NCBI GenBank assembly: GCA_000798955.1 | Contig: JTLC01000010.1 | Span: 1 to 64,000, forward strand | Origin: Firmicutes bacterium ZOR0006 | GTDB lineage: Bacteria > Bacillota_I > Bacilli_A > Culicoidibacterales > ZOR0006 | DNA: 64,000 bases | Direction of reading: 5' to 3' | Part shown: in pieces, positions 48,690 through 49,857 of the stretch | Layout: every line of letters begins with the position of its first letter | How positions within the stretch are numbered: position 1 is the stretch's first letter | Notes under the pieces: generated by a model | Told to the model about the DNA's origin: nothing | Database searches by the model: none | Seen by the model: the letters and a program-made list of their open reading frames with translations, nothing else | Program-made: the position numbers and the translations under genes

Positions 48690-48810
48690 GTGTCAGCAAG
48701 GTTGGTACCACAACAATGACAAGCGTGCTTCAAGGAGCAAGGTTATGAAGAAAAAGTTCGCCAATGATCACGGCAGGAGAGCTTAGAAATTCAGCATTAC
48801 TGCTTGAAAC
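48690..48810 (+). ncRNA. Possible structured RNA module A0 upstream of DUF1659
   Basis: TTCAAG (48729-48734) can pair with CTTGAA (48803-48808) across 68 nt, echoing the middle stem of the two better-supported modules downstream. The word TGACAAGCGTGC just before it recurs near 47125. Evidence is weaker than for the other modules because no covariation is visible. Confidence 0.35.
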
Positions 48811-48838
48811 ACAAAAACAGAAAAAGGAGAATTTACAA

Positions 48839-49051
48839 ATGGCAAAAGTAGTAGAAAGTGTACAATTAGGTTTAGTTGTTCCCAATGGATTAGATGACAA
48901 AGGTATGCAAAAATTTCGTTCGATTTTGATTCGTCAAATTGATCCAGCATTCACAGATGAAGCAATCACCGCATTAGCAGCAGCAATTGATCAAGTTTTA
49001 ACCGAAGCAAGTGTCCGTAATGTTGTCACAACCAAAGAAGAAGTATATTAA
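48839..49051 (+). CDS. DUF1659 small protein
   Basis: This 70-residue protein resembles DUF1659 (MAKVVESVQLGLVVPNGLDD...DQVLTEASVRNV). Its role is unknown. It begins at the ATG preceded by AAAAAGGAG; the frame upstream to 48764 is noncoding. DUF1659 and DUF2922 genes are often neighbours in Bacillota, as here, but in this window they are separated by about 250 bp of structured noncoding sequence. The short YvrJ peptide that often accompanies them is not visible. Confidence 0.8.
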   Translation: MAKVVESVQLGLVVPNGLDDKGMQKFRSILIRQIDPAFTDEAITALAAAIDQVLTEASVRNVVTTKEEVY

Positions 49052-49052
49052 A

Positions 49053-49250
49053 AACCAAGTGCTGACGTCGGTACTATCAAAACAAGGAATGAAGGGATAG
49101 TATCAAGGCGGTATGGCAAATAAGCGAATGATTGATAGCAGTCTGAGATTGCGTCATCAACATTTGCGATTTGGCGAGCCTTGAAGACGGAAGCATGCCG
49201 AACCAAGTGCTGACACCGGTGTTTCAAAAGAGAGGTTCAAGGAAACAGTC
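49053..49250 (+). ncRNA. Structured RNA module A1-B1 between DUF1659 and DUF2922
   Basis: Two units begin with the word AAGTGCT (49057 and 49205). Unit A1 has stem P1 TACTATC/GATAGTA (49072-49078/49096-49102), then P2 TCAAGGC/GCCTTGA (49103-49109/49178-49184) enclosing P3 GCAAAT/ATTTGC. Unit B1 has TGTTTC/GAAACA (49220-49225/49242-49247). The same order and spacing recur after DUF2922, with altered bases that keep P1 and P2 paired. This covariation is strong evidence for a conserved RNA fold. Its function is unknown. Confidence 0.72.
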
Positions 49251-49306
49251 GATAATCGTGTAGATGAGGAAAAAATCAAAAATTAAAATATAAAGGAGAA
49301 ATGAAT

Positions 49307-49531
49307 ATGCAACAAACAACAACAAAATCTTTAGAATTACGATTTCAAGCCCCAATCAGTGGGAAAAAATATAATATTACAATTAGTAATCCGGCAATCG
49401 TAGAAAAACCAGTATTAGAGCAAGTGTTAACAAATATTGTCGCCAGCGGTGCTATTAAAGTATCAGGTGAAGCTATTATTGCACTAGATGCACGATACAT
49501 CACAAAAGTCGTCGATGGCTTTACAAACTAA
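49307..49531 (+). CDS. DUF2922 small protein
   Basis: This 74-residue protein (MQQTTTKSLELRFQ, then GKKYNITISNPAI) resembles DUF2922. Its function is unknown. The ATG at 49307 has AAAGGAG with a 9-nt gap; the ATG at 49301 is too close. Its TAA stop overlaps the AAGTGCT word that opens the next structured module, so coding and RNA structure abut directly. Confidence 0.8.
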   Translation: MQQTTTKSLELRFQAPISGKKYNITISNPAIVEKPVLEQVLTNIVASGAIKVSGEAIIALDARYITKVVDGFTN

Positions 49532-49714
49532 GTGCTCGAGTGCGTTGCTATCAGCAAAATAATTAAGGATAGCATCAAGTCGGCATGTGAAAAAAAGGAA
49601 ATAGCGTGGGAGAAAAATATTCAGACGATATTTCTGTTTTCACGAGACTTGAAGCATAAGACACGTTACGAAACCAAGTGCTAACACCGCTTTTGCAAAC
49701 GCAGTAGCAAAAGC
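49530..49714 (+). ncRNA. Structured RNA module A2-B2 after DUF2922
   Basis: AAGTGCT opens the two units (49530 and 49676). A2 has P1 TGCTATC/GATAGCA (49546-49552/49568-49574) and P2 TCAAGTC/GACTTGA (49575-49581/49646-49652). P2 encloses P3 GTGAAAA/TTTTCAC and an apical AAATAT/ATATTT. B2 has GCTTTTGC/GCAAAAGC (49689-49696/49707-49714). Compared with A1-B1, P1 changes an A-T pair to G-C and P2 a G-C to T-A with pairing kept. P3 and B differ fully in sequence but stay paired. Confidence 0.75.
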
Positions 49715-49816
49715 AAAAAGTTAGATATGTTTAGGGTGGTAGACCATAACTGAGAGCTGGCAGAGCGAGTGTTTCACAGATAATAGAATACTAATAATCG
49801 TAAATAGAACCAAGGA
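49715..49816 (+). other. Noncoding tail between module A2-B2 and the terminator
   Basis: No ORF of useful length is present. It links the second RNA module to the terminator and is probably part of the same transcript. GGGTGGTAGACC at 49734 faintly resembles part of a T-box but lacks the rest. Confidence 0.4.
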
Positions 49817-49857
49817 GAATAGAAATGAGACACGCACTCATTTCTATTTTTTTGATT
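49817..49857 (+). terminator. Terminator of the DUF1659/DUF2922 transcript
   Basis: AATAGAAATGAG and CTCATTTCTATT form a 12-bp stem around ACACGCA, followed by T's. Confidence 0.9.

Follow-up and report, generated by a model that had tools for sequence, protein, structure and literature searches.

Structured modules behind DUF1659 and DUF2922 genes are very likely copies of a mobile repeat that favors gene 3′ ends

The window analysed here, 64,000 nucleotides of contig JTLC01000010.1 from Firmicutes bacterium ZOR0006 (positions 1 to 64,000, forward strand), contains two small genes that are each followed by an array of structured repeat units. The first is a DUF1659 gene at 48839–49051 on the plus strand (Pfam PF07872, 36.2 bits), which belongs to the host and lies outside the element. 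Its start codon was picked by inspection, with AAGGAG as the ribosome-binding site, and its stop codon occupies 49049–49051. The leader of this gene (48690–48838) carries GATATANAGGGTGTCAG-like bases common to the sister genome, the only other member of the genus included in the analysis; it has no Rfam match and is not a unit. The first full repeat unit lies at 49053–49200 (+; R1 127.4 bits, R2 112.6 bits). Its outer stem is composed of P0a, in which GTGCT (49059–49063) pairs with AGCAT (49192–49196), then a tandem GA/GA, and then P0b, in which CGTC (49066–49069) pairs with GACG (49186–49189). Enclosed by this stem are P1 (49072–49102), formed by TACTATC (49072–49078) and GATAGTA (49096–49102), and the P2–P4 arm (49103–49184). 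The array closes with a half unit at 49201–49248 (+), recognized in the sequence by the 5′ strand of P0 and a P1 hairpin. Here the arm and the 3′ strand of P0 have been lost, and only a weak R2 match remains (49201–49301, 32.7 bits).

The second host gene, a DUF2922 gene at 49301–49531 (+; Pfam PF11148, 26.5 bits), ends in a TAA stop codon that overlaps the start of the second full unit (TAAGTGCT). This unit, at 49526–49672 (+; R1 118.9 bits, R2 120.5 bits), forms a three-way junction as in the first, and its array is again closed by a half unit, read from the sequence at 49672–49713 (+) as AACCAAGTGCTAACACCG plus a P1 of CTTTTGC/GCAAAAG. An intrinsic terminator with 17 pairs and a T tail is found 3′ of the second array at 49813–49853 (+), in agreement with the strong terminator that the first-pass annotation had seen at the end of the transcript. 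Elsewhere in the window, a further full unit is located on the minus strand at 83–230 (P0a GTGAT/ATCAT; R2 72.1 bits; fold z −3.05). A truncated unit in 1–85 follows it, and the T-rich flank recurs at the boundary between the two.

Much of what the first-pass annotation had read from this locus was borne out. The Pfam matches uphold its identification of both proteins, and the stems that it listed are present in the sequence, with P1 as TACTATC/GATAGTA and TGCTATC/GATAGCA and P2 as TCAAGGC/GCCTTGA and TCAAGTC/GACTTGA. The two modules do share one fold, since each of them folded alone gives the same three-way junction (z = −5.3 and −3.8). The motif AAGTGCT occurs at 49057, 49205, 49530 and 49676; the copies at 49205 and 49676 belong to half units and do not open full modules.

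From 5′ to 3′, a unit runs through the outer stem P0a (GUGCU/AGCAY), the tandem G·A, the 4-bp stem P0b, the P1 hairpin with a loop of ~15–17 nt and the P2–P3–P4 arm, and then returns through P0b and P0a. P0a is also the terminal inverted repeat present in the unit. Units are ~125–155 nt in length, and both full modules behind the DUF1659 and DUF2922 genes are ~147 nt. The arm sequence is almost completely turned over between copies, and the three-way junction is kept. By inspection, the units of one locus usually have P0a in common; neighbors are unlike in P0b, P1 and the arm.

In an alignment of 128 copies, standard pairs fill 90.8% of pair cells and the covariation score is 0.593, compared to 0.178 for shuffled and at most 0.10 for slid controls, although this alignment was fitted to the model and is hence biased towards structure. 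The first alignment, A2, was made with MAFFT and no structure fitting and gave 0.524 versus 0.20, the structure scored on it having come from A2's own sequences. Pairing therefore survives base change, as had been claimed from the two modules, with 961 two-sided cell changes among the 128 copies; as these copies are paralogs sharing descent, such counts do not represent independent events.

A covariance model built from 13 units returned 126 copies at E ≤ 0.01 in the 1.97-Mb genome and 30 in the sister genome. A DNA search had already turned up further copies in both genomes. The repeat makes up about 1% of the genome and occurs in head-to-tail arrays of 1–5 units. Many contigs of genome G000 (e.g. 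C21, C29, C33, C58, C81 and C85) start or stop either inside a unit or no more than ~500 bases away from one. Assembly breaks probably fall at these repeats, and more copies may exist than were counted.

Covariance searches of relatives and of class-wide Bacilli and phylum-wide samples yielded no convincing match outside the genus, with the proviso that the class- and phylum-wide searches score few candidates per genome and distant relatives could escape them. Weak class-wide matches in two genomes (G182, G236) were gone in a focused search, and plasmids and phages gave no match by distant blastn. A pattern scan of genome contigs, in a collection that excludes the window's own genome, found four scattered matches in unrelated phyla, none of which matched the model; among three pattern matches in viral contigs, only L228 had a model match, which was weak and did not overlap. 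From these searches, the repeat is so far confined to this genus. Nothing in Rfam reached the gathering threshold, and only spurious matches appeared at a relaxed one. The earlier remark that no described RNA has this layout around these protein families thus stands insofar as no Rfam family matches, but the layout itself is not special to DUF1659 and DUF2922.

The modules had been presented as belonging with these two gene families. If the DUF1659/DUF2922 operon had a structured RNA of its own, either cis-regulatory or stable and non-coding, the position of the two modules would indeed fit, as they follow both genes on the coding strand. In the sister genome, however, the DUF1659 and DUF2922 genes lie side by side, separated by 24 bp that hold no module, and because this site is empty the operon reading is contradicted. 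Nor was there a significant match to the model at 11 DUF1659 loci of other genomes, the sister locus included, where the covariance search had been suggested. Furthermore, the more than 120 other copies are located elsewhere, mostly 3′ of unrelated genes. We therefore regard an operon-specific RNA as extremely improbable, and the location behind DUF1659 and DUF2922 would be an accident of insertion. A literature search on DUF1659 and DUF2922 together brought up nothing useful under the terms tried.

Instead, the sequence comparisons make it very likely that both modules belong to a high-copy, non-autonomous mobile repeat that is specific to the genus. Identity between units of different loci ends mostly near the unit ends. 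A tnpB gene is broken by two antisense units, and two intact 378-aa tnpB copies are found in the same genome. Compared to the intact copies, site A carries a 125-nt insertion with CGA duplicated and site B a 128-nt insertion with no duplication. The units in tnpB are at L107 822–1173 and L021 2752–2794, and the tnpB beside the L021 array has a remnant at site A. Empty sites are also seen in the sister genome, the DUF1659–DUF2922 pair being one example; some array sites are common to both species and most are not. The last units of arrays are often decayed, although the comparison of first and last units gives only a trend (p = 0.055).

The host bases that precede an array reappear at its internal unit boundaries (e.g. 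TATCGTTT, TTTTGTGC and GCCT). Between the array flank and the first internal boundary, the mean common suffix is 4.9 nt, as opposed to 0.8 nt for shuffled loci (0/5000), in a test of 37 arrays for which the boundaries were chosen by the analyst and their sequences entered by hand. The length of the duplicated target varies, with 3 bp at tnpB site A, none at site B and 0–12 nt of host bases at array boundaries. Given this variation, the repeated host bases could also be explained if arrays grow by tandem duplication and gene conversion instead of taking up unit after unit at a single target. Near-identical neighbors (L022 units 2 and 3; L090) and identical host-derived bases at several boundaries within an array speak for such growth, but the arms of neighbors are often dissimilar, and the host bases that flank them remain those of the locus. 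We consider this a real alternative for how arrays lengthen, though less likely than not.

As to what moves the repeat, a reverse transcriptase (RVT_1, PF00078) has no match in either genome, and the Y1 transposase (PF01797) is matched once in the sister genome and not at all in the ZOR0006 genome. If the mover has to be resident, therefore, neither class accounts for the movement. On this count the repeat does not qualify as an IS200/IS605-derived or REP/RAYT element, nor as a derivative of a retroelement or group II intron. That no mover came to light among the two families searched counts against the mobile-repeat explanation. The look-up of partner transposons covered PF01797 and PF07282.

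The arrays are placed at the 3′ ends of genes far more often than chance would give. A gene in the same orientation lies upstream in 54 of the 58 arrays with an identifiable neighbor in the ZOR0006 genome, and the array starts within −10 to +12 nt of the end of a sense ORF in 41 of 58 cases here and 12 of 18 in the sister genome. Random non-coding sites fall within the same limit at a rate of 3.2%, as measured in the sister genome. The counts of 41 and 12 were made by hand from distance lists (the binomial test used 44 and 13, at a slightly wider limit), and the genes are simple ORF calls; the window's own DUF2922 array was scored as not close solely because its gene falls below the length cut-off. 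Several arrays have no stop codon anywhere near them, which counts against the mobile-repeat explanation in the form we favor. Arrays L082 and L083 begin right after the T-run of a terminator and not after a stop codon.

In most ortholog pairs, the protein ends at the identical residue whether an array is present or absent, and therefore the element sits behind the native stop codon. By the same agreement of ortholog ends, truncation of genes by a stop codon carried on the element was rejected for most sites. Many of the sister orthologs that have no array carry an ordinary terminator instead. A glycosidase frame enters the element in both species (L072 2201, L189 9865), and from the sequence its C-terminus appears to be element-encoded. 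A terminator-like hairpin occurs within 350 nt downstream in 41 of 52 arrays, by a crude scan that also catches the arms of further units. At L111 2201–2784, the downstream terminator looks like a P4 arm from one type of unit with a T-run after it, as if it had been made from an arm.

This placement raises the possibility that the repeat is mobile in origin but selected as RNA, an array being retained since the folded 3′ UTR affects how stable the mRNA of the upstream gene is or how its transcription terminates. The strong sense orientation and stop adjacency, the hairpins found downstream by the crude scan and the sites common to both species would all be in keeping with such a role. So would the pairing itself: with two columns left out, G–U pairs outnumber A–C mismatches (120 versus 71; p = 5e-4), and a fold of the sense-strand RNA is slightly preferred by this excess, a count that depends on the model-fitted alignment. 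However, most sites are not common to both species, last units are often decayed, arms diverge freely, and the BOX repeats, which are similarly placed, have been judged parasitic (PMC3049150). On balance, retention through an RNA function is a possibility that we would not bet on.

The fold could equally be kept up at the DNA level, with stems maintained by strand-switch correction of quasipalindromes or through the recognition of single-stranded DNA in its folded form, RNA having no role. The unit strand folds as DNA too, and paired changes are nearly all from one Watson–Crick pair to another (2789 Watson–Crick versus 229 G–U pair cells). P0a and P0b also change compensatorily even inside clusters of similar arms. 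On the other hand, the unpaired parts, namely the tandem G·A and the asymmetric loop GG-AUG/CGAG, remain unpaired in most copies, which a blind correction would tend to erase, and the sense-strand excess of G–U pairs likewise does not favor a DNA-only account. Upkeep of this kind is therefore also doubtful, to about the same degree as an RNA function. Of the earlier claim of a selected RNA fold, the conservation of the fold and its strong compensatory change stand; paralogous covariation alone is no proof of RNA function because palindrome recognition or correction at the DNA level can give the same pattern.

Under the mobile-repeat explanation, we propose that a putative enzyme would recognize the folded single strand of the unit and put it at a gene 3′ end with duplication of a short target. 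The same target might then be hit again and again, yielding arrays of unlike units, the distal ones of which would decay into half units. Once in place, the units would be transcribed as long structured 3′ UTRs, and their position suggests that they are probably co-transcribed in this way with the upstream gene. A more specific scheme is that of insertion addressed to stop codons, in which a hypothetical recombinase would stack three-way-junction units in sense orientation at gene 3′ ends and copy bases of the local target, thereby rebuilding the outer stem to suit each locus. We put this forward as a long shot.

The locus serves as a cautionary case, in which perfect-looking covariation beside two genes has its source in what we take to be a mobile repeat present in paralogous copies. 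The element itself is unusual in its share of the genome, in a junction that is kept despite the turnover of the arm and in its stop-codon placement. It lends itself to testing how small non-autonomous elements select gene 3′ ends and what role long folded 3′ UTRs play.

Among described elements, the closest in kind appears to be BOX of Streptococcus pneumoniae, which is modular and structured, extends operon transcripts at their 5′ and 3′ ends, and supplies the stop codon in 36 genes with no clear truncation (PMC3049150). The repeat described here is similarly high-copy, structured, intergenic and modular with tandem parts. Set apart by description, it is without the boxA/boxB/boxC layout of BOX, the whole unit forming a three-way junction, and whole units are tandemly arrayed with host bases recurring at their boundaries.

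Integron attC sites are recombination sites that fold into a conserved structure, are free to vary in sequence and lie in direct repeats just behind stop codons, and the resemblance in outline extends to the folded sites, the direct repeats and the stop codons. Unlike the attC hairpin, the unit here is a three-way junction, and the genes are ordinary chromosomal genes and not cassettes. The bcr1 repeat is ~155 nt long and makes a fixed 5-bp target duplication. Repeats of the bcr type in the Bacillus cereus group are often found inside transcript UTRs (PMC3446304). The likeness to bcr1 is that of high-copy, MITE-like repeats that are often parts of UTRs, but the repeat here occurs in arrays, has a variable duplication and forms a three-way junction.

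EFAR, as described by Venditti in 2007, is reportedly the same element as Efa-1, and is said to be assembled from sequence types, which makes its length variable, and to insert at stem-loop (terminator) targets. Efa-1 of Enterococcus faecalis is a 163-nt double-hairpin family (PMC2267715). With a length of ~163–170 nt, a double hairpin and an intergenic location, EFAR/Efa-1 is comparable to our repeat but, as described, differs from it in the three-way junction and the stop-codon adjacency found here. The best reading of these comparisons, which are by description only, is that the repeat is a new structured repeat of the BOX, EFAR and bcr1 kind that we do not assign to any of the named families.
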